Source of the DNA: Bryobacterales bacterium
GTDB lineage: Bacteria; Acidobacteriota; Terriglobia; Bryobacterales; Bryobacteraceae
Assembly (NCBI GenBank): GCA_019261985.1
Contig: JAFAQY010000008.1
Coordinates: 1-62,348 of the forward strand
Length of the DNA stretch: 62,348 nt
Direction of reading: 5' to 3'
Under the pieces are notes generated by a model, which was not told where the DNA came from, ran no database searches, and worked only from the letters and a program-made list of their open reading frames with translations. Each line of letters opens with the position of its first letter. Position 1 is the stretch's first letter. Below are positions 3,992-43,530 of the stretch, piece after piece. A program made the translations under genes and the position numbers.

Positions 3992-4023
3992 TTTCCGAAC
4001 GAACGTCAAAACGAGGTTAAGAC

Positions 4024-5940
4024 CTACTGCAGCGCGAACACATTCAACGTATCTGTCGCCACAATGGCGACGTACTGTTTGCCGTTCTTTCCCGCATACA
4101 CCATCGGGTTCGCGTTCCCGTTCCGTTCCATTTTGTAGTCCCACAGCTCCCTGCCGGTCTTGGAATCGAACGCACGGAAACGTGCATCGTTGCTTGCTCC
4201 GATAAAGACGAGGCCGCCCGCCGTCACCGTCGGGCCTGCGCTCCCGGTACTGCCGGTGTCCTGTTTGCCTTCAGGCAGGCGATCCGTCAGCCCGAGGCGC
4301 ACCTCCCACGCAATATCGCCGGTATTTGCGTTGACGGCGAACAAGCGTCCCCATGGTGGTTTCTGGCACGGCATGCCTAGCGCGCTGAACCCGTTATACG
4401 GCCCAGGACCGTTAATGCTCCCGCGATCGTAAGGCTGCGGCGAGCCGTTTCCGCTGCCATAATTGCCGCCTTCGACCTTCTTTTCGATCCAGCCGCTCAA
4501 AGCCGAGTCGTGGGTCTGAACGTAGACATAGCCCGTAGTAGGATCCGCCGCTGTGCCGCCCCAATTCGGTCCGCCGTTGCCGGGAAATTGAAGCGTGCTT
4601 TTCGGCGGAGCGCCCGCTTCATGGAAAAGGAACGGTGTAAACGGTCCCGCGTTGTAAAAGCCCCCTGCTTTGTCCCATAGCTCCTGGCAGGCTTTCACAT
4701 GTTCGGCGGTCGTATCCTCCGCCGTGACCATATCTTCTTTCTTGAAGCTGGTGCGCGCCAGCGCCGGAGGCTTCAGCGGGAACGGCTGAGTGGGAGAATA
4801 CCACTCACCGGGAACATCGCCTTTGGGTACCGGACGCTCCTCGACGCCGAACACCGGTTTACCGTTGGTGCGATCAAGGATGAACATCCAGGCGCTCTTG
4901 CCGATTGCCGCCAGAGCTGGAACTTTGCGCCCGTTTCGGGTGATGTCGATCAGGCTCGGCGCGGGCGGCAGGTCGGTGTCCCACAGATCGTGGTGCACGA
5001 TTTGAAAATGCCATTTGTATTTACCTGTATCGGCATCCACCGCGACTACCGAATTGCCGTAGAGATTCGCGCCCGGCCGATCGCCGCCCCAATAATTTCC
5101 AGCCGGGCTTCCCAAAGGCATGTAGAGCAGGTTGCGGTCTTCATCCACGGTCAAATACCATCCCCAAACGTTAAGGCCCGCGCGCTTCTTCCATCCGTCA
5201 TCGAGCCACGTTTCATGCCCCGGCTCACCCGGTTGGGGAGTGGTTCTGAAGATCCACGACTTCGCTCCGGTGCGTGCGTCGAATGTCCGCAGATCGCCGG
5301 GCGGCCCATCCGTGCTCTCGCCGTTACTGATCCCCAGCACGATCAGGTTCTTGTAAACGTAGGGAGCGCCGCCCCAGTTCATCTCAATATCAACCGAGCC
5401 TTCCTTGCCGAAGCCGGGATCCACCTTGCCCGTGTTCGCATTTAGCGCCATCATGCTACGGCCGGCCGTAAAGAGAATTCGTGGAGGATTGTTCTGATCG
5501 CCAGGCCAGTAACCGACCGCGCGATTGCCCACCGCGGCGGAAGCGGTGTAAGACCAGATCTCTTTGCCGCTATCTGCTTCGAGCGCGAACACGCGGTTTC
5601 CGCCGGGAAAATACATTACTCCGTTCACGACGATAGGAGTGACCTCCGGCGACAGCCCTCCTGCGCCGCCGCCTTTGCCTTTACCCTTGCCGCCACCCTT
5701 CTCCGCATCTGGCGGGGCCGGAAGAGGAATGGGTTTGTAACTCCAGGCCAATTTCAAATTCGAGACATTCGCCGCGGTGATCTGCTTTAAAGGCGAGTAG
5801 CGCGTGCTCGCGAAATCGCGGCTATAAAGCGGCCAATCGCCCGCGGGGATCGGTTTAGGAGCCGTTCCCTTTTTTTCGTTCTGCGCAAAAACTGGGAGCG
5901 CGAGAGCGGCGAACAGGAGCATGATCCACATGAAGCGCAT
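4024..5940 (-). CDS. Periplasmic PQQ-dependent dehydrogenase (quinoprotein glucose/alcohol dehydrogenase family)
   Basis: The start at 5940 is set by a GAGGGAG site next to the ATG and a signal peptide (MRFMWIMLLFAALALPVFAQ). The 638-aa protein is an eight-bladed propeller: repeated tryptophan-docking strings such as ALEADSGKEIWSY, TFDARTGAKSWIF, VDADTGKYKWHFQ and SKTGRELWDYK are visible, with the QIVHHDLWDTDLPPAP segment typical of PQQ dehydrogenases. It would oxidise a sugar or alcohol in the periplasm using PQQ and calcium and feed the respiratory chain. No cytochrome c CxxCH motif is present, so electrons must pass to a separate carrier or quinone. The substrate cannot be fixed from sequence. 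A 137-bp duplicate of its 3' end lies at 2984-3120. Confidence 0.9.
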   Translation of the reverse strand: MRFMWIMLLFAALALPVFAQNEKKGTAPKPIPAGDWPLYSRDFASTRYSPLKQITAANVSNLKLAWSYKPIPLPAPPDAEKGGGKGKGKGGGAGGLSPEVTPIVVNGVMYFPGGNRVFALEADSGKEIWSYTASAAVGNRAVGYWPGDQNNPPRILFTAGRSMMALNANTGKVDPGFGKEGSVDIEMNWGGAPYVYKNLIVLGISNGESTDGPPGDLRTFDARTGAKSWIFRTTPQPGEPGHETWLDDGWKKRAGLNVWGWYLTVDEDRNLLYMPLGSPAGNYWGGDRPGANLYGNSVVAVDADTGKYKWHFQIVHHDLWDTDLPPAPSLIDITRNGRKVPALAAIGKSAWMFILDRTNGKPVFGVEERPVPKGDVPGEWYSPTQPFPLKPPALARTSFKKEDMVTAEDTTAEHVKACQELWDKAGGFYNAGPFTPFLFHEAGAPPKSTLQFPGNGGPNWGGTAADPTTGYVYVQTHDSALSGWIEKKVEGGNYGSGNGSPQPYDRGSINGPGPYNGFSALGMPCQKPPWGRLFAVNANTGDIAWEVRLGLTDRLPEGKQDTGSTGSAGPTVTAGGLVFIGASNDARFRAFDSKTGRELWDYKMERNGNANPMVYAGKNGKQYVAIVATDTLNVFALQ

Positions 5941-35651: not shown

Positions 35652-36193
35652 GCTTTTCAAAGCCTTACGCCGACGCCGTCGCAAAGCTTCGTGTATTTTG
35701 CGGATTTCTTATGGCGGCCGCCTTTGTGTGGTTTTCCGAGCCCACGGCCGCTTCGCTTGCGTTCGGCCTGCCGCTGGCGGCTGCCGGCTTGGCGTTGCGA
35801 GCCTGGGCCGCCGGACACCTTGAAAAAAATCTCTCGCTTACCGACAGCGGCCCGTACGCGCATGTGCGTAATCCGCTATATATCGGGACTCTCACGGTGT
35901 CGGCGGGCTTTGCAATTGCGGCGCGGCGCTGGGAGTTGGGGCTATTATTTGCCGCCATCTTCCTGCTGGTTTATCTGCCAGTGGTGGAGCTTGAAGAACA
36001 GCATTTAGCGCGTTTGTTTCCCGAGTTCAAAGAGTATGCGCGCCGCGTGCCCCGGTTGGCGCCTCGAATAAGCGGCTGGGGCCTGGGTGCCAAACCATTC
36101 CAGTTTTCTTTGTACCGCCGCAACCGCGAATACGAAGCATTGGCCGGGTTCCTGGCAGGCGTGGGCGTGCTTTTCTGGAAAGTGATTCGTTAG
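35648..36193 (+). CDS. Membrane methyltransferase of the isoprenylcysteine carboxyl methyltransferase-like family
   Basis: I prefer the GTG at 35648, which forms GTGA with the waaC stop, over a start at 35615. The 181-aa protein has several membrane helices and the ICMT/PEMT-type motif LSLTDSGPYAHVRNPLYIGT followed by VVELEEQHLARLFPEFKEYA, with RNPLY and EE as the SAM and catalytic region. It would methylate a membrane lipid or quinone-like compound; the substrate is unknown. It is the last gene of the LPS cluster and converges with the LuxR gene, overlapping by 4 bp. Confidence 0.83.
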   Translation: MSFSKPYADAVAKLRVFCGFLMAAAFVWFSEPTAASLAFGLPLAAAGLALRAWAAGHLEKNLSLTDSGPYAHVRNPLYIGTLTVSAGFAIAARRWELGLLFAAIFLLVYLPVVELEEQHLARLFPEFKEYARRVPRLAPRISGWGLGAKPFQFSLYRRNREYEALAGFLAGVGVLFWKVIR

Positions 36194-36729
36194 ATTTTCA
36201 CCAAGCCGAGCCTCACTCCGCGCATCACCGCTTCCGTTCGCGTACCCGCGCGCAGTTTTGCCAGGATCGAGTTCACATGGAATTTGGCTGTGTGCTCCGA
36301 AATCGAAAGCCGGTAAGCAATCATCTTATTGCTCAAACCCTCGGCGAGCATCTCCAACACATCCAGTTCGCGGCGCGTAAGCCGGTCAATCGTTCCGTCG
36401 TCATCCGGAGGAGCGGGAAAGGGTAAGAGTTCGCCCGCCGGGACAACGGTTAATCCCGCCGCCGCAGCTTGAATCGCGGCTGCGATCTGCTCTGCCGGTG
36501 CATCCCGCGGCAGCACCGCTCGAACTGCGCCACGCAAATTCCGCGCGGCAAGGTCGTCTCCGAGGAGCACAACGGGAACCTCAGATTCGACGGGGACGGC
36601 GCCGTCGCTGAGAATCACGTCGGCATCCTCCTCCCGCGCGCCAAGCTCGATGTCTGCGTAATGACCTAGCAGCGATTCCAAACCCGCGCGCGTTACGGCG
36701 GAACGGGCCGCAATATGGAGGCGGATCAA
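36190..36729 (-). CDS. LuxR-type regulator with a degenerate (pseudo-)receiver domain
   Basis: The 179-aa protein ends in a clear LuxR helix-turn-helix (LTRRELDVLEMLAEGLSNKM, AYRLSISEHTAKFHVNSILA). The N-terminal 110 residues follow the receiver order (IRLHIAARSAVTRAGLESLL, ADVILSDGAVP) but lack the acidic pair before the first helix, where DDH-type residues are replaced by ARS, and have Pro in place of the conserved Lys. An Asp in the phospho-acceptor position remains (D42). Phosphorylation control is therefore doubtful. Its start overlaps the stop of the protease gene, so it is the third gene of the operon. Confidence 0.85.
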   Translation of the reverse strand: MIRLHIAARSAVTRAGLESLLGHYADIELGAREEDADVILSDGAVPVESEVPVVLLGDDLAARNLRGAVRAVLPRDAPAEQIAAAIQAAAAGLTVVPAGELLPFPAPPDDDGTIDRLTRRELDVLEMLAEGLSNKMIAYRLSISEHTAKFHVNSILAKLRAGTRTEAVMRGVRLGLVKI

Positions 36730-37580
36730 GCCGCCTCCCGGCGGCTCGCCGGCAAAGCGATCGCCACCTCCCGCACGGCGAGCCTCTGCCCCCGCAGAAA
36801 GCCAAGCCGGAGGACATTTCCGGTCGCACCGTCAATCGCGTTTCCTAGATCCCTCGCAGACGCCAGTTTGGCGCCGTTCGCGGACACCAGCAGGTCTCCG
36901 CTCTTCAACGATGCATATTCCGCCGGGCTGTTCGATGTTACGTCGAGTACGAGCAGCGCCGATTCGCCAGGAGGGCTTGCAACCTGCCGCACTACTACCC
37001 CGAGCGATGGCCGCGCTCCCCGGCGCAGGAAATCTGCGACAGTGTCGCTCGGCACCGCCAATCCCAGGGCGCCGCCGCGGCTGCTGACCACCATCGTATT
37101 GATTCCAACGACGCGCCCTTCCGAATCGGCGAGCGGTCCTCCGGAATTACCGGGCGCCAGCCGGATCGCGGCCTGAACCCAGCGGCGGTCATCCCAACCG
37201 CGCACCGGCCCGCACGCGCGAATCGTTCCAGTGGTGAGCGCTCCCACAAACCCCAAAGGATTTCCGATTGCGATCACCGGCTCACCGGGCCGCAATGACG
37301 TAGAGTCACGCCACGCAGGCGCGGGAAGATTTCGGGCCTGAACTTTCAGGGTCGCCAAATCCCGCCGTGGATCACGTTCGGCAAGTTCTGCGGTGAGCGA
37401 AGTGCCATCCCACAATTCGACTACCGCCGAGCCGCTCACGACATGAGCATTGGTGACCACCGTTCCGTCAGCCGTCCAGATAACGCCCGAGCCACTGCCT
37501 TGAGCATTTCGCGCTTCGGTCAGGATTCTGACAGTTGAACGGCGAAGCTGTTCCGCAATTTCGCCGAACCGCCCCGGCAT
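36726..37580 (-). CDS. HtrA/DegP-like serine protease with PDZ domain, intact triad, no signal peptide
   Basis: The 284-aa protein has a trypsin-type HtrA fold: TNAHVV (His46), RRDLATL (Asp74) and APGNSGGPL (Ser146). A PDZ domain occupies residues 190-280 (LGVVVRQVASPPGESALLVL, AEYASLKSGDLLVSANG). No signal peptide or membrane segment is seen, so it may be cytosolic. It is flanked by a dead HtrA paralogue upstream (6 bp) and the LuxR-type regulator downstream. The triad suggests an active degradative or signal-sensing enzyme. Confidence 0.9.
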   Translation of the reverse strand: MPGRFGEIAEQLRRSTVRILTEARNAQGSGSGVIWTADGTVVTNAHVVSGSAVVELWDGTSLTAELAERDPRRDLATLKVQARNLPAPAWRDSTSLRPGEPVIAIGNPLGFVGALTTGTIRACGPVRGWDDRRWVQAAIRLAPGNSGGPLADSEGRVVGINTMVVSSRGGALGLAVPSDTVADFLRRGARPSLGVVVRQVASPPGESALLVLDVTSNSPAEYASLKSGDLLVSANGAKLASARDLGNAIDGATGNVLRLGFLRGQRLAVREVAIALPASRREAA

Positions 37581-37585
37581 ACTCG

Positions 37586-38491
37586 CTACCTCCTCGGGCG
37601 CTCGCCAATTGTGACGTCTAACTTCACGACCTCTCCGCCGCGCACGATTTTGACAGGCATTTTTTTCCCGATCGAATCGGAATCGAGCAATTCCTGTACT
37701 TTCTCGGGCCGTGCGACGGATTGTCCATTCAGTTCTATTAAAATGTCGCCGATCGACACCCCCGCGCGGCCTGCCGGCGCATCCGGATCGACGCTCATCG
37801 CCATCAGGCCCGTTGGTGAAGACAAACCCAGCTTAGTTGTGAGATGCTCCGGAAGAGCAATTGGTTGTAGGCCCGCGCCAAGGTAGCCGCGCGGAATGCG
37901 GCCGTGCATTATCAGCCTTTCGGAAATTCGCGCAATGGTCTCCGGCGGAATTGCGAACGCAGAGAACCGCGACAGCGCTTGCGTGGCGAAGCCGATGAAT
38001 TGGCCCGCGGCATTCACCACAGCTCCGCCCGCGGCCCCCGGCTGTAAATCGAGGGCCAAGCGGATAACGCGGTCGAGCCGCCCGCCGCGCCAGGTCTGGG
38101 AAGCGGGAGAAATACTTCCGATAACGCCGAGCGCCGCGATCGGACTGTCCTTCGACCGGCCAACGGCCAGCGCGATTTGGCCAGGGACAAGGCTCGCGGT
38201 CTCGGCTTTCGAAACGACGTGCACGTCAAGCGAAGCCGCGCGCAATACGGCGAGATCCGTGCCTGGATCGCGGCCGACCAGTTCGGCATTCACGGTTGTG
38301 CCGTTTGGAATGGTGATGCGGATATCTTCATCGCGGCGAATCGTGTGACACGCGGTGACGATAATGCCCGGGCTCCAGTGGACGCCGCTCGAATCGAAAC
38401 GCCGCCGCGCGTGAATAGCTACAACGGATTGAGCCGCTTTGCCGACGACGGACGCGAGCTCATCCGAGAAAGAAACAAGAGAGTTGGTCAA
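37586..38491 (-). CDS. Catalytically dead HtrA-like protease paralogue with PDZ domain
   Basis: An AGGAGG site (38500-38505) fixes a TTG start at 38491, giving 301 aa. His49 (TACHTI) and Asp79 (GTDLAVL) are kept, but the nucleophile motif GNSGGP reads QPGAAGGAVV, with Ala154 for Ser. The PDZ domain (RGYLGAGLQPIALPEHL, GRAGVSIGDILIELNGQSVA) is intact. No signal peptide is visible. It directly precedes the active HtrA paralogue (6 bp). The pair suggests a scaffold-protease or substrate-presentation partner, perhaps a heteromer. Confidence 0.88.
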   Translation of the reverse strand: MTNSLVSFSDELASVVGKAAQSVVAIHARRRFDSSGVHWSPGIIVTACHTIRRDEDIRITIPNGTTVNAELVGRDPGTDLAVLRAASLDVHVVSKAETASLVPGQIALAVGRSKDSPIAALGVIGSISPASQTWRGGRLDRVIRLALDLQPGAAGGAVVNAAGQFIGFATQALSRFSAFAIPPETIARISERLIMHGRIPRGYLGAGLQPIALPEHLTTKLGLSSPTGLMAMSVDPDAPAGRAGVSIGDILIELNGQSVARPEKVQELLDSDSIGKKMPVKIVRGGEVVKLDVTIGERPRR

Positions 38492-38582
38492 GAGTGCTGC
38501 CTCCTGACCTAAGCATGCATTCGCGGGGCAGGGAAGCGCATACCGAGAACGGGTGGGCCGGACCTGCCCGTTCGGGCGGGTC

Positions 38583-38623
38583 GTTGGGCAGGATGGTATC
38601 CTGCGCGCGATTGCCAATCGCGC
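38583..38623 (+). repeat. Two-hairpin dispersed repeat, copy 2
   Basis: GGCAGGAT-GGT-ATCCTGC at the left and GCGCGATT-GCC-AATCGCGC at the right form adjacent perfect stems. A further hairpin, ACCTGCCCG-TT-CGGGCGGGT with one wobble pair, lies just left near 38569-38588. The block occupies the gap between the dead-HtrA gene and the TPP enzyme. Confidence 0.75.
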
Positions 38624-38656: not shown

Positions 38657-40375
38657 CTAGCTCATCAAATGCGCAAGCCAGACGTCCAGCACCGCGGAGC
38701 GCCGTTCCTGACGAACCGCGTGCAGCGCTTCTTCGATGGCCGGATTTAAATCCGCGGGATTCTTCACCACGCGCGCGAATGCTCCGCCGGCTGCGGCGGC
38801 GATGCCGGAATAATCGGGCGGCGGATCGAACGCGATGCCAAGGTCGCCGGCTTTGCTGGCGAACCCATGCGGATGGACCGCGAGCGCGGAAAATCTCGGG
38901 GCGCGCCAGCCGCGGTTGTTGTAGATAACCTGCAGAAACGGAGCTTGGTACCTTCGGGCGATCCAGTGTACGGTCGAAGGCTGGCTGAACATGTACGAGC
39001 CATCGCCCGTGAGACTTACGACCGTTTTGTCCGGTGCCGCGAGCTTCATCCCGATCGCCGCCCCGCCGTTCCAGCCGAGCGAGCTCGCGCCGCTGGTGAA
39101 AAGCCGGAGCGGCTGCGTGGCGCCGACGTGGTTGTGAATTACAGAGTAGTTCGTTATTCCTTCGTTCAAAACAATTGTGTCGCGGTCAATATGTTTGCGG
39201 ATACAAGCGGTGAGGTACTCCGGTGTAATGGTTCCATCCTGAGGCTGCCGCTCACGTGTTGCGAGCTGAGCGTCGCGATCCCGGTGCACCCGGGAATAAT
39301 GCGCGTGCCGGTCCTGAACCAGCGCGGCATCGACGCCGGAACCCAGCCGATCGTGAATTTGACGGAGAGCCGTCGCGCAATCGGCTCTGAAAACCCGGCG
39401 CGCCGGAATGTACCACAGCGGCATCTGCTCTTTAATCGGATCGATATCGATATGGTAGATGCGAGCTTCGGGGCTCGGACCGTTTTTGGACGGAATCCAC
39501 GGAACGTCGCTATCCATTACCAGCACGAAATCCGCTTCAGCCAGGCATGGATTCTGAACGGGTTCATTGCCTTGAACGCCAATATACAGTTCATTGTCTG
39601 AAGGAAAATTCAAGTAATTCGCGACCGATTCGAGCACGGCCATTCCGGTGCAGCGGCACAGCCGCACCAGTTCTTCGACAGCTTGCGAATTGCGGCCCAA
39701 ATATGAAGTGACTACCAACGGACGACGGGCAGTCCGCAATTCATTCGCGAGCTCTTCCACGCCTGCCGCCGGGAGAGCGATCGGCTCGATCGGTTCGAAC
39801 AGAGCTGGATTCACTTCGATACGTGGGATTTCCTCCTCCATCACTTCACGAGGTCCCATCAGGTACGCCGGCCCCTTCGGGTCGCTATAGGCGAACTGCA
39901 AGGCGCGGTGCACCATCTGTTTAATGTTGCGACCGGTTCGCAGCTCGTTTTCGTATTTCATGTAGGGGCGGACGATCCCCCTTTGATCGAAGACATCCTG
40001 CAGCCAGTGAATGAACTCGTTGCGAGTTCCTCGCAACTCGCCTTCCTGCGTGTAGGGCGATGCTCCCGCGAAGATCAGCACGGGAATGCGGCAGCGCGAC
40101 ACATTATGAACCGCTCCCGCCAGCGATTGCGTGCCGCACTCGACGTGCACGATGACGGCTTGTGCCCGGCCTGTGAGTTGCGTGTAGCCTTGCGCACAGG
40201 CGAGCGCAACCATTTCATTCGGGCAGGTAATGACATTCGGCACCGCCGTGCCCTCGGCCTTGGCCTGCGCGATCGCTTCCAGGAGCGCCGGATGATCGCT
40301 GCCGAAATTCGAAAAAATATAAGAGACGCCCGCGTCTTGCAGGGCTTCTAGGAAAGCGGAACTGGTTGTGTACAT
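38657..40375 (-). CDS. Thiamine pyrophosphate-dependent enzyme, acetolactate synthase-like
   Basis: The 572-aa protein has the three-domain fold of TPP enzymes: N-terminal PYR domain with the catalytic Glu in TCPNEMVALACAQGY, a middle domain, and the PP domain with GDGSYMFSQPSTVHWIARRY to NN (GDG-x28-NN TPP motif). It resembles acetolactate synthase and related carboligases or decarboxylases but lacks ALS-specific neighbours such as ilvN or ilvC, so the substrate is open. The gene is monocistronic or leads into the tannase gene only 3 bp downstream of its start. Confidence 0.88.
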   Translation of the reverse strand: MYTTSSAFLEALQDAGVSYIFSNFGSDHPALLEAIAQAKAEGTAVPNVITCPNEMVALACAQGYTQLTGRAQAVIVHVECGTQSLAGAVHNVSRCRIPVLIFAGASPYTQEGELRGTRNEFIHWLQDVFDQRGIVRPYMKYENELRTGRNIKQMVHRALQFAYSDPKGPAYLMGPREVMEEEIPRIEVNPALFEPIEPIALPAAGVEELANELRTARRPLVVTSYLGRNSQAVEELVRLCRCTGMAVLESVANYLNFPSDNELYIGVQGNEPVQNPCLAEADFVLVMDSDVPWIPSKNGPSPEARIYHIDIDPIKEQMPLWYIPARRVFRADCATALRQIHDRLGSGVDAALVQDRHAHYSRVHRDRDAQLATRERQPQDGTITPEYLTACIRKHIDRDTIVLNEGITNYSVIHNHVGATQPLRLFTSGASSLGWNGGAAIGMKLAAPDKTVVSLTGDGSYMFSQPSTVHWIARRYQAPFLQVIYNNRGWRAPRFSALAVHPHGFASKAGDLGIAFDPPPDYSGIAAAAGGAFARVVKNPADLNPAIEEALHAVRQERRSAVLDVWLAHLMS

Positions 40376-40378
40376 GCT

Positions 40379-41875
40379 CTATTGCAGCTTACACGAGAAG
40401 TTCGCGGCCTCATCCGTGTTGCCCGAGCCGTTGTAAACCGCCGTTTGCGGATACGGGCACAGCGGACGCGTGCGGTCCAAAGTGAATCGCGTCACTCGCG
40501 ATGCTGCAATGCGTTCCGGAGCTTTGCCTTTTTCCACCCACGCGCTCAGGGCCCCCACCGCATCGAAGGTGTCAGTGCCTCCGCCGCGGCAATGACCCAT
40601 GCCGGGAACCATGAAGAGCCGTATGGACTCGGCAGCTTTCCGCTCGCCACCGGCGCCCTCGACCACATTCTCAAAATAGTTAACGCTATTCCGCGGAGCG
40701 ATTCCCGGATCGGCCCAGCCGTGATACATGATCAGCTTGCCACCGTGCCCGAAAAACGGCTTAAGATTCGCGTCGGTGGAGTTCATCATAGCGGCGGCGT
40801 TTTTATCCGCTGCGGCCATATCGCGATCCGGATCGAACGTCATGTAGTTCCAGCTCGGATCTTTGAAGACGATGAACTTATATGTTTCCTCGGCCAGCGA
40901 CATCGGCTTTGAGCCGCCGAGAGTGGCCCAGCCCAATTCGCTGCCGCGTTCCAGGCCCGGGAACAGCGGCCTTCCAGTTTTCGCGCTAACCGGGCCGCTA
41001 TATATCTTTCGCGCAGCTTCCACCTGCTGAGGAGTCAAGCAATTCGAAGTGTCCGCGCCCGCGCAAGCAAGTTCTTTCGGATCGAAATGGCAGCGGGTGG
41101 GATCTTCGAGGATGCCATCCTTTACCCCATCCAGCGCATCGCACGCCTTCAGCACGGCATCGTTCAGCAGCCGGTACTTTTGGGGCGGAATATATGATCC
41201 CTCCTCTTTGTGCAGCACCTGATTCACCCATACCTGCTGCCCTTGCAGATGCGTGACGTAATTGGCGGGCGCGCCCGCGATTATTCCGTCGTAATCGCCC
41301 GGATAGCGCTGCGCTTCGGCCATCGCTTGCCGCCCACCCGTCGAGCAGCCATTCCAATACGAATGCGCCGCCACGCGGCCATAATACGCGGCCACAATCG
41401 CCTTCGCCGCAGTCGTCGTTTCATGCACTGCGCGATAGGCGAAATCGGTCAGCTTTTCGGGATGGCCGAGGATGAAATCGGCATTGTTGCCAGTGTGCCC
41501 TGTGTCCGTGCTCGCGGTTGCATAACCTGCGGCAAGAGCGGTCGCCATTGCGGGGTACGAAATCGTGCCCGCCCAGGCTCCGTTGCCAACCGATTGCAGC
41601 GAGTTGTTCCATCCGCTCGACGGCAGCCACACCTCGATCTTGATATCCGAGTCGCTCGAAGGCTTGAGCGTCGCTGCGACCCGGCAGAATGCAGGGAGAT
41701 TCGCGTACGCGGTCCCCACTCCCTTGCCGTTGCCCGCGGGCGGTTTGAACTGCCCGGCATCCACGGATTGCGCCAAATCGATTGTGGCATTGGGCAAAGA
41801 TAACGACGTGAGGGTTTCACAACTAGCCCCAAACGCCGGCAGTGTTGCGACTATCAAAGCAATGTAGCGAAACAT
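40379..41875 (-). CDS. Tannase/feruloyl esterase-family secreted hydrolase 1
   Basis: A signal peptide (MFRYIALIVATLPAFGASC) precedes a 498-aa alpha/beta hydrolase. The nucleophile elbow is YWNGCSTGGRQAMAEAQRYP with Ser in G-C-S-T-G-G, and the histidine lies in VPGMGHCRGGGTDTF; the Cys next to Ser and the Cys after His fit the CS-D-HC disulfide of the family. It would cleave esters of gallic or hydroxycinnamic acids in plant polyphenols. It shares a layout with the paralogue at 42001-43530, 125 bp upstream of it on the same strand, and precedes the TPP gene. Confidence 0.9.
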   Translation of the reverse strand: MFRYIALIVATLPAFGASCETLTSLSLPNATIDLAQSVDAGQFKPPAGNGKGVGTAYANLPAFCRVAATLKPSSDSDIKIEVWLPSSGWNNSLQSVGNGAWAGTISYPAMATALAAGYATASTDTGHTGNNADFILGHPEKLTDFAYRAVHETTTAAKAIVAAYYGRVAAHSYWNGCSTGGRQAMAEAQRYPGDYDGIIAGAPANYVTHLQGQQVWVNQVLHKEEGSYIPPQKYRLLNDAVLKACDALDGVKDGILEDPTRCHFDPKELACAGADTSNCLTPQQVEAARKIYSGPVSAKTGRPLFPGLERGSELGWATLGGSKPMSLAEETYKFIVFKDPSWNYMTFDPDRDMAAADKNAAAMMNSTDANLKPFFGHGGKLIMYHGWADPGIAPRNSVNYFENVVEGAGGERKAAESIRLFMVPGMGHCRGGGTDTFDAVGALSAWVEKGKAPERIAASRVTRFTLDRTRPLCPYPQTAVYNGSGNTDEAANFSCKLQ

Positions 41876-41887
41876 GTAGAAATTTTA

Positions 41888-41996
41888 GTGGGGCAGGATG
41901 CTATCCTGCGGCGGGTCGCCAGCCCGCCTGCCGACGTTTTCACCAGCCCCGAACAGCGCGATTGGCAATCGCGCGCAGGTTGGCAACCTGCCCGAC
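41888..41996. repeat. Two-hairpin dispersed repeats, copies 3 and 4 in inverted arrangement
   Basis: Copy 3 (41888-41928, plus) is GTGGGGCAGGAT-GCT-ATCCTGC then GCGGG-loop-CCCGCC. Copy 4 (41956-41996, minus) has GCGCGATT-GGC-AATCGCGC and GCAGGTT-GGC-AACCTGC, followed by CCGAC. They point toward one another with a 27-base spacer and fill nearly the whole 125-bp gap between the two tannase genes. Confidence 0.8.
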
Positions 41997-42000
41997 CTTT

Positions 42001-43530
42001 CTACCGCGCCTTGCAGGAAAAGTTCCCCGCGTCATCGGTGCTGCCGGTTCCGTTGTAGACCGCCACCTGCGGATACGGGCACAGCGGGCGCGTGCGATCG
42101 GTCTGGCCATTGCGGACGCGCGAAGCAAGGATCTTATCAGGCGCCTGCTTCGATTCCACCCACTGCTCCAGAGCGGTCAGCATATCGAACGTGCTGGTGC
42201 CATCGCCGCCGCCGCAGTGTTGCATGCCGGGTACCATAAACAGCCGGTAGCTTCCGCTGACCTTGCCGGCGCCGCCCATTTTTTCGAGCACGCTCTTGTA
42301 GTAATCCACGCTCGAGCCGGGGGCGATCTGCGGGTCGGCCCAACCGTGGTACTGGATGATCTTTCCGTTGTGTCCCAAGTATTTCGACAAATCCGGATTC
42401 ATGGCGTCCAGATCGGCGCTTTCCTTTCGGGTTAAGGCGATGTCGCTGTCCCAGTTCATCGTCTTGTAATCCCAATCGGGATTCTTAAAGACGACGTACT
42501 TGAACAGATCGGTTGCGAGTCCGAAAGGCTGTTGGCCGGCCATCGTGTTCCAACCCATCTCGCTACCCGGTTCGAAGCCCGGGAATTCCACGTGTTTGGT
42601 GCGCGAATTCGTGACGGGCGTGTACATGCGGCGGACAGATTCCACTTGAGCCGCAGTCAAGCAGTCCGGTCCATCCGCGCCCTTGCACTCGATCGATTTC
42701 GGGTCGAATTTGCAATGGGTCGGATCTTCCAGCACGCCGTCTTTCACTCCATCCTGCGCATCGCAGGCCGCGAGCACCGCGTTGTGGACCGCCTGAAACT
42801 TCGATTGGATAGCACTCTCTTCATCCTTGTGCACCTGTTGCGCGATCCACACGGCCTGCAAAGAGCGCCCGGCAAAGTTAACGGCCGGAGCGCCGGCGAC
42901 GATTCCGTCGAAATCATCGGGATAACGCTGCGCCTCGTCCAGTCCTTGGCGGCCGCCCTGGGAGCAACCGTTCCAGTAGGAGTATTTGGGGGCCTCGCCG
43001 TAAAAAGCGGCTGTGATCGCCTTGCCCTTCACCGCCATCTCATGTACGGCCCGATAACCATAGTCGACCAGCTTCTCGGGATGGCCGAGCGCAAAACTGG
43101 CGCTGCCGCCTTCGTGGCCCGTGTCCGTCATAGCGGCTGCGTAGCCGAGTTTAACGCCGGTTGCGAGCGTTGCCGGCGTAATAGCGCCAGACCAGCCGCC
43201 ATTACCGTTAGCTTCAAATTTGTGATTCCAGCCTGACGCGGGCATCCACAGTTCGATCTTGATATCGGAATCGGGGGTGGGTTTTACTGTAAACGCGACA
43301 CGGCAAAACGCAGGGACATCGTTGAACGAAGCCGCTTTGCCCTTTCCGCTCGCTGCTCCAGCGGAAAATGTCCCGGCCGCCACCGACTGCGCGGTTGTAA
43401 TAGTCGTGTTCGGCAGCGACAGTGAAGCGAGGCCTTCACACGTGGCCGCCGCGGCGACGCCGGTAATTCCCAGGGAACCCGCCAATAAAGCAACTGCTCT
43501 CATCGTTGAAATTATGCGCATCACGCACAC
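42001..43530 (-). CDS. Tannase/feruloyl esterase-family secreted hydrolase 2
   Basis: The 509-aa protein has an N-terminal signal segment (ISTMRAVALLAGSLGITGVA) and the same key motifs: YWNGCSQGGRQGLDEAQRYP (Ser in GCSQGG), the acidic residue region around QYHGWADPQIAPG and the histidine in VPGMQHCGGGDGTST with its flanking Cys. Sequence similarity with hydrolase 1 is close throughout (for example SGWNHKFEANGNGGWSG versus SGWNNSLQSVGNGAWAG), so they arose by tandem duplication. The substrate difference is unknown. Confidence 0.9.
   Translation of the reverse strand: MCVMRIISTMRAVALLAGSLGITGVAAAATCEGLASLSLPNTTITTAQSVAAGTFSAGAASGKGKAASFNDVPAFCRVAFTVKPTPDSDIKIELWMPASGWNHKFEANGNGGWSGAITPATLATGVKLGYAAAMTDTGHEGGSASFALGHPEKLVDYGYRAVHEMAVKGKAITAAFYGEAPKYSYWNGCSQGGRQGLDEAQRYPDDFDGIVAGAPAVNFAGRSLQAVWIAQQVHKDEESAIQSKFQAVHNAVLAACDAQDGVKDGVLEDPTHCKFDPKSIECKGADGPDCLTAAQVESVRRMYTPVTNSRTKHVEFPGFEPGSEMGWNTMAGQQPFGLATDLFKYVVFKNPDWDYKTMNWDSDIALTRKESADLDAMNPDLSKYLGHNGKIIQYHGWADPQIAPGSSVDYYKSVLEKMGGAGKVSGSYRLFMVPGMQHCGGGDGTSTFDMLTALEQWVESKQAPDKILASRVRNGQTDRTRPLCPYPQVAVYNGTGSTDDAGNFSCKAR

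Follow-up and report, generated by a model that had tools for sequence, protein, structure and literature searches.

A recurrent cassette of two HtrA-fold proteins and a pseudo-receiver LuxR-type regulator, preceded by a predicted lux-box-like operator, as a candidate self-contained cytosolic switch

A 62,348-nucleotide stretch of DNA from a Bryobacterales bacterium (GenBank assembly GCA_019261985.1, contig JAFAQY010000008.1), referred to here as the window, includes a cassette of three genes, named htrX, htrY and luxR, that code for two HtrA-fold proteins and a DNA-binding regulator and are preceded by a palindrome (Table 1). The corresponding proteins at all loci are called X, Y and LuxR. 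The original prediction made on this DNA had described an HtrA-fold protein with alanine in place of the nucleophilic serine, a second HtrA with an intact triad, and a regulator whose receiver has lost its acidic pair and lysine; the genes were found at their places and all of these residues were confirmed. Ala154 of htrX lies in the context LQPGAAGGA and Ser146 of htrY in APGNSGGP, the carboxylate-loop motif of the htrX PDZ domain reads RGYLGAG, and the regulator has Ala8 and Arg9 at the acidic-pair positions, Arg75 at the Lys position and a retained Asp42 at the phospho-site. The TTG start codon of htrX is preceded by AGGAGG, and the same frame stays open to a TTG at 38617. A gap of 5 bp separates htrX from htrY, and htrY and luxR overlap by 4 bp (TTGA), the TTG start of luxR lying over the htrY stop codon. 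Pfam analysis revealed Trypsin_2 and PDZ_2 in both HtrA-fold proteins and GerE in the regulator, in which Response_reg was unmatched at E≤0.1. The scores of htrX and htrY against the Do family model TIGR02037 were 144.3 and 182.7 bits, both below the curated cut-off of 416.2 bits. Judging from the sequences, Ala154 is real and not a sequencing error, because the window shares this alanine with loci L051-L053 and the X proteins that have lost Ser or His are under purifying selection (Ka/Ks 0.085-0.17 in 9 pairs).

Table 1. Features of the htrX-htrY-luxR cassette, with positions as in the window.
Feature	Position	Strand	Description
htrX	37586..38491	-	301 amino acids (aa); HtrA-fold protein, His49-Asp79-Ala154, nucleophile gone; PDZ at about residues 198-296
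htrY	36726..37580	-	284 aa; HtrA-fold protein, His46-Asp74-Ser146 intact, plus PDZ; predicted live
luxR	36190..36729	-	179 aa; GerE/NarL-type regulator with pseudo-receiver; C-terminus GLVKI
Predicted operator	38562..38581		20-bp near-palindrome ACCTGCCCGTTCGGGCGGGT; 20.2 bits; centred some 80 bp before the htrX start
Possible -10	38537..38542	-	TATGCG; 19 nt after the site (family optimum 21 nt); weak; inferred from sequence

The scan of a collection of species genomes matched at least 589 stretches, 559 of which were confirmed as relatives, and the best 80 loci were kept for comparisons. All 80 carry X relatives, and luxR is present in 74 of them (70 uncut and 4 cut by contig ends). By record title these loci belong to ten phyla; many are metagenome-assembled genomes (MAGs), whose labels are possibly off, and the records not titled MAG include Cupriavidus necator UYPR2.512, Paraburkholderia humisilvae, Archangium violaceum and Nodosilinea nodulosa PCC 7104. 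The 79 regions upstream of X that were used (window included) are distributed among Acidobacteriota (37), Chloroflexota (15), Cyanobacteriota (10), Gemmatimonadota (5), Pseudomonadota (4), Myxococcota (3), Vulcanimicrobiota (2), and Bipolaricaulota, Rokuibacteriota and Thermomicrobiota (1 each). Among 60 relatives, X orthologues were found at 13 loci (E values from 1.2e-117 to 7.4e-39) and luxR adjoins X in all 13, with no Y in genomes G020, G006 and G028 and a frameshifted Y in G019. The gene order recurs far beyond the genome of the window, a condition on which the original prediction had made the idea of a system depend. At the family level, the X profile matched 99 of 200 genomes at E≤1e-45, and the lower part of this list consists mostly of ordinary Do-type HtrA proteins, since these matches are mostly in long open frames (about 350-740 aa); at the phylum level the distribution is patchy, with matches at E≤1e-60 in 12 of 396 genomes, its own counted.

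The order X-Y-luxR is the commonest, and X-luxR and luxR...X are also found. In 42 of the 44 loci where Y adjoins luxR, luxR starts precisely at the base that precedes the Y stop codon, and the junction is NTGA in all 47 loci listed, as counted from 58 rows after setting aside ten from relatives L038-L050 and one spurious L082 fragment. There is no conserved fourth gene, as no non-cassette neighbour family occurs in more than 10 of the 80 loci; the most frequent real one (10 loci) is ABC transporter-like by eye, and one larger cluster was discounted as overlapping-frame translations. No recurrent histidine kinase stood out among these neighbour families, although no kinase profile search was made. 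A plasmid or phage home was also considered and rejected: X was matched at E≤1e-35 in just one of 72,556 plasmid records (Paraburkholderia sprentiae, a 974-kb replicon), and no phage record matches LuxR at E≤1e-20. In the P. sprentiae plasmid pl1WSM5005 (locus L247, positions 4010-5602) the pair is labelled 'S1C family serine protease' and 'response regulator transcription factor', and the phosphorelay GO term of this regulator is probably misleading if it resembles its kin.

The region upstream of X, which the original prediction had not covered, includes a conserved lux-box-like 20-bp inverted repeat with the family motif ACCTAGCC-RWWY-GGCTAGGT. A de novo Gibbs search of 75 upstream regions, those left of the 79 after removal of near-duplicates, gave a score of 922 (the best of four starts, the others reaching 727-803) versus 454-455 for shuffled regions. 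A symmetrised matrix scored at least 12 bits in 65 of the 79 regions (median 16.7 bits) versus none of 366 random segments of the same loci. Because this matrix was fitted to the same 79 regions, the fair test is the one across phyla. At a threshold of 12 bits, the motif trained on Acidobacteriota was found in 33 of 42 upstream regions of other phyla versus 1 of 230 random segments and 3 of 210 shuffles, and the motif trained on the other phyla in 29 of 37 Acidobacteriota regions versus 1 of 207 random segments and none of 185 shuffles. When 820 kb were scanned, 67 of the 79 sites scoring at least 12.5 bits were within 250 bp upstream of X; of the 12 elsewhere, two (in L116 and L118) still belong to these cassettes, where they are located before luxR or at a greater distance upstream of X. 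A second, weaker copy of the palindrome is located 21-26 bp away in 23 loci, and luxR-first loci have the site before X in 8 of the 10 scored. The window site scores 20.2 bits versus 9.4 bits for the next best in the 62 kb, and is the sole exact match to the pattern in its own genome.

A -10-like hexamer is phased 21 nt downstream of the last site, a phase that was reached by none of 500 jitters. A -10 phased in this way after a site is what would be expected if the site were that of an activator and overlapped the -35. A wider regulon was considered and not supported. In the genome of the window, 94 matches with two mismatches were found versus 131 for the reversed-pattern control. With one mismatch, the pattern exceeded the control in three of five relatives (10/6, 11/8 and 7/4; not in 4/5 and 4/24) and in three of ten other genomes (7/2, 5/4 and 4/2).

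The supposition that Ala154 might be fixed in the X paralogue did not hold. His-Asp-Ser is kept by X in 58 of 81 loci, which rules out Ala154 as a fixed hallmark, and Ser and/or His are gone in the other 23, the states being HDA (5), HDV (8), HDI (2), HDD (1), ADI (1), EDG (1), EDA (1), YDL (2) and DDS (2). A quick maximum-likelihood tree requires six changes of triad state, four of them forced by starred branches, with loss and regain indistinguishable. The combination of a dead and a live HtrA is consequently a recurrent state and not the rule, since the X serine is usually intact; it fails as a definition of the system, and the idea of a system stands. In all 79 X proteins scanned, Trypsin_2, PDZ_2 and PDZ_6 were matched, and the PDZ carboxylate loop is conserved at Gly205 (79/79), Leu204 (74/79) and Tyr203 (71/79). 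Residues 133-137 of X (TWRGG in the window), the loop before the nucleophile, are a possible contact surface, with Gly136 in 79 and Trp134 in 58 of the 79. The Y triad is present in 51 of 51 aligned copies; of the 60 loci with a Y entry, 55 are HDS and 5 frameshifted, partial, cut or masked. The Y PDZ is missing in 11 of the 51 (five changes on the tree, two forced), and Pfam PDZ_2 matches 38 of the 51. X thus keeps its PDZ and may lose cutting, and Y keeps its predicted cutting and may lose the PDZ. Alignment A4 does not include L123 and L127, A5 does not include L108, and some HtrA proteins were taken for other paralogues and kept out of A6, namely the second one at L078, the first one at L100 and those at L098, L107 and L117.

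At six loci (L052, L091, L095, L110, L113 and L124) X is broken and Y is not found next to it, but luxR, contig-cut in L124, is kept. Their upstream sites score 15.4, 8.7, 21.1, 18.0, 19.9 and 8.4 bits respectively, which is weak in L091 and L124 and strong in the other four. Cutting therefore looks dispensable for the X and LuxR pair. Whole-genome searches with the Y profile found no Y orthologue in G020, G006 and G028, where the best matches, in frames of 414-517 aa, scored 181, 184 and 152 bits versus 409 bits for the window Y; G020 and G028 are the genomes of L052 and L091, so nothing near the window Y was found elsewhere in them. In the genomes of L095, L110, L113 and L124 the best Y-profile match scores 175-194 bits, and as some Y genes of other phyla score 162-217 bits, a distant Y may be located elsewhere in these four. 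The window and 16 other broken-X loci also carry a Y gene, which among those 16 is frameshifted in L051 and N-masked in L115. Ala-Ala is the end of 36 of the 44 Y proteins encoded next to luxR, and might serve as a PDZ ligand, a degron or an ssrA-like end. It is partly explained by the overlap of Shine-Dalgarno and NTGA start codon, which constrains the Y end, and an AA end is also found in some X proteins whose genes are in coupled positions (L091, L111 and L126).

Both HtrA-fold proteins look cytosolic, as judged from their N-termini. No hydrophobic N-terminal stretch of the kind that serves as export signal or membrane anchor in DegP or DegS was found in X or Y by Kyte-Doolittle peak, which within the first 22 residues is at most 1.53 in 79 X and at most 1.17 in 55 Y (a count that includes the HtrA proteins of L098, L107 and L117). 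This agrees with the original prediction, which had noted no signal peptide in the pair. The genome of the window has seven Trypsin_2 matches, and the five besides X and Y are in 390-561 aa frames with a hydrophobic N-terminal stretch and peaks of 1.84-2.55, taken over a different stretch, the first 110 residues of the open frame. The AlphaFold2 model of htrX has a pLDDT of 94 and matches the structures of Deg1, MucD, DegS and AlgW. That of the window LuxR (pLDDT 90, pTM 0.60) has a receiver-like strand and helix layout with an uncertain domain arrangement, and its best Foldseek matches are ChrA, LiaR, VraR and NarL, with TM values of about 0.40-0.47 over both domains.

Among 71 aligned LuxR proteins, neither the acidic pair nor the lysine is present in any, and the phospho-site Asp is kept in 36. 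GerE was matched in all 71 and Response_reg in 18. For comparison, a pattern search of 26 other GerE regulators from three genomes found the acidic pair and the lysine in 15, and some of the others are receiverless by eye (a 27th, L175, gave no match). The pseudo-receiver has diverged, and most of it is deleted in L051-L053. Because the acidic pair and the lysine are absent from all 71, canonical phosphotransfer is strongly ruled out, on these residues, as the mode of the cassette regulator in every member seen, and the claim that this regulator is not switched by phosphate was borne out to that extent. No autoinducer-binding domain was found in the Pfam scan of the window or among the 25 families matched across the LuxR set. 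LuxR ends in Phi-x-Phi-COOH in 84 of 85 proteins, a set that includes 13 from relatives L038-L050, some duplicating other loci. Among other regulators of eleven genomes this end is found in 11 of 52, or 10 of 51 without L269, the cassette regulator of Archangium. Such a tail is consistent with a PDZ ligand and is not proof of one. Coevolution of the LuxR C-terminus with the X PDZ was considered and gave no signal in a mutual-information test.

We place at about 0.5 the probability that the cassette is an autoregulated, self-contained cytosolic module in which the PDZ of X, and not phosphate, sets the activity of LuxR. The co-occurrence of the genes, their coupled order, the upstream site and the patterns of loss can be read from the sequences themselves; from the site we infer that LuxR binds DNA there, and circumstantial evidence points to a contact between X and LuxR. 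As LuxR cannot be phosphorylated in the canonical way and the X PDZ is kept even without Ser or His, protein contact is the likeliest means by which X would set the activity of LuxR. A LuxR dimer would bind the palindrome and activate X-Y-luxR, generating positive feedback, and the PDZ of X would hold LuxR, perhaps via its hydrophobic C-terminus. Exposed C-termini of damaged or cut cytosolic proteins could then compete for the PDZ, freeing LuxR, and Y, plus X where intact, would degrade such proteins and close the loop. An X without nucleophile would stay as a sensor, perhaps also as an activator of Y, a role like that of MamO towards MamE. The original prediction had left it between proteolysis and PDZ binding to convey the signal; the former is weakened by the six loci in which X is broken and has no Y beside it, and the latter, a predicted binding, is favoured by the retention of the X PDZ in 79 of 79.

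Several observations weigh against a PDZ-controlled, autoregulated module. Of the 79 upstream regions, 14 score below 12 bits, and a loose -10 pattern at +21 fits just 28 of 71 promoters. No regulon could be seen outside the cassette: relaxed matches outnumber the reversed control in only 6 of 16 genomes, and then modestly. No luxR was seen in the DNA covered for 6 of the 80 loci, in three of which (L086, L093 and L097) the contig ends inside Y, with L103, L112 and L130 showing none. The type found in Chloroflexota and Myxococcota has luxR up to about 3 kb upstream of X, mostly without a site before luxR. The Phi-x-Phi tail is also present in some canonical relatives (L164, L165 and L173) and may therefore be simple ancestry, and the mutual information between LuxR C-terminal positions and X was not enriched in the PDZ (69 pairs, a weak test). 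Finally, the catalytic Asp of X is also present in 79 of 79, so that the PDZ is not the sole part of X that has been kept.

Alternatively, the HtrA proteins could be the output, a cytosolic quality-control unit whose level is set by a LuxR that senses something else, be it a small ligand, redox or the abundance of LuxR itself. Hardly any strong sites lie outside the cassette, with no consistent excess elsewhere, and LuxR may therefore control nothing beyond the cassette itself; the divergence of the pseudo-receiver and its deletion in some members are also in keeping with this possibility. We consider it rather unlikely, as it leaves unexplained both the retention of the X PDZ while the triad was lost in several lineages and the X-luxR loci with a broken X, where the cassette has no protease to control. 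It also appears unlikely that proteolysis is the signal, with Y or an intact X cutting or degrading LuxR or a hidden inhibitor in the style of DegS and RseA, and an inactive X tuning Y. The invariant triad of Y and its tight coupling to luxR speak for this mechanism, other HtrA-like matches, found in 14 of 14 genomes with the Y profile, could act in trans, and the pseudoprotease MamO activates MamE-dependent proteolysis (PMC4794232). However, luxR is kept in the six loci that combine a broken X with the absence of a neighbouring Y, nothing near the window Y in score was found in two of their genomes, and no other gene family is conserved beside the cassette. That the genes are ordinary neighbours with a decaying HtrA duplicate, and no system, is very improbable: the cassette does erode (Y is frameshifted in L039/L051 and absent in L038/L052), but loci that by record title come from ten phyla have conserved the order and the upstream site, purifying selection acts on X proteins without the triad, and the PDZ was kept in 79 of 79 through six changes of triad state.

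The DNA just upstream of the cassette in the window (38657-43530, minus strand) codes for a TPP-dependent enzyme as identified by Pfam, and two further ORFs past it presumably resemble tannase/feruloyl esterase. Neither kind of neighbour was seen beside the cassette in the 13 relatives examined.

The component families of this cassette are known, and the upstream lux-box-like palindrome is new here. No description of an HtrA and LuxR cassette was found in the open-licence literature, subscription literature lying outside the search, and to our knowledge bacterial HtrA signalling in the cytosol has not been described. The cassette suggests an undescribed way of gene switching. More tentatively than for the module itself, it might represent a new class of cytosolic signalling, spread over about ten phyla, in which an HtrA-fold PDZ protein, a pseudoprotease in many lineages, directly switches a pseudo-receiver factor, cutting is left to the second HtrA as a separable subunit, and control stays within the cassette through a lux-box-like operator; that is, a stand-alone proteostasis feedback device. 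The cassette can also be regarded as a natural experiment on HtrA proteins in a cytosolic setting, in which catalysis and PDZ have been lost separately in two partner proteins, which argues for separable functions.

In DegS-RseA-sigmaE and AlgW-MucA, as in the system proposed here, an HtrA with a PDZ that reads protein C-termini leads to transcription. Those systems work in the periplasm, where a membrane anti-sigma factor is cut, and act through a sigma factor, whereas the cassette proteins lack an evident signal peptide and no fourth gene is conserved with them. The lux box, ACCTGTAGGATCGTACAGGT (PMC4444344), is like the cassette site a 20-bp ACCT...AGGT palindrome, bound by a LuxR-type HTH as is predicted for the cassette site, but differs in the inner bases, scoring 7.8 bits versus a median of 16.7 for the cassette upstream regions, and the cassette regulator has a receiver remnant and no autoinducer-domain match. 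MamE and MamO are a putative HtrA protease and a pseudoprotease with a degenerate active site that act together, and in magnetotactic bacteria such pseudoproteases arose independently in three taxa (PMC4794232). An inactive and an apparently active HtrA are likewise encoded together in the window; unlike the Mam pair, which functions in magnetosome formation and metal binding with no transcription factor or operator in the abstract of PMC4794232, the cassette often has an X with an intact triad, and X keeps its PDZ. Pseudo-receiver response regulators are, like the cassette regulator, DNA-binding proteins with a receiver without the DD and K, and their switching mechanisms in bacteria 'remain a mystery' according to a 2025 paper (PMC12632262), in whose text the terms HtrA, protease and PDZ occur 0 times. 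The cassette regulator differs from these in having recurrent genetic partners and a predicted operator, and because it also has dozens of homologous loci, the question of how a pseudo-receiver is switched becomes directly testable in the cassette.

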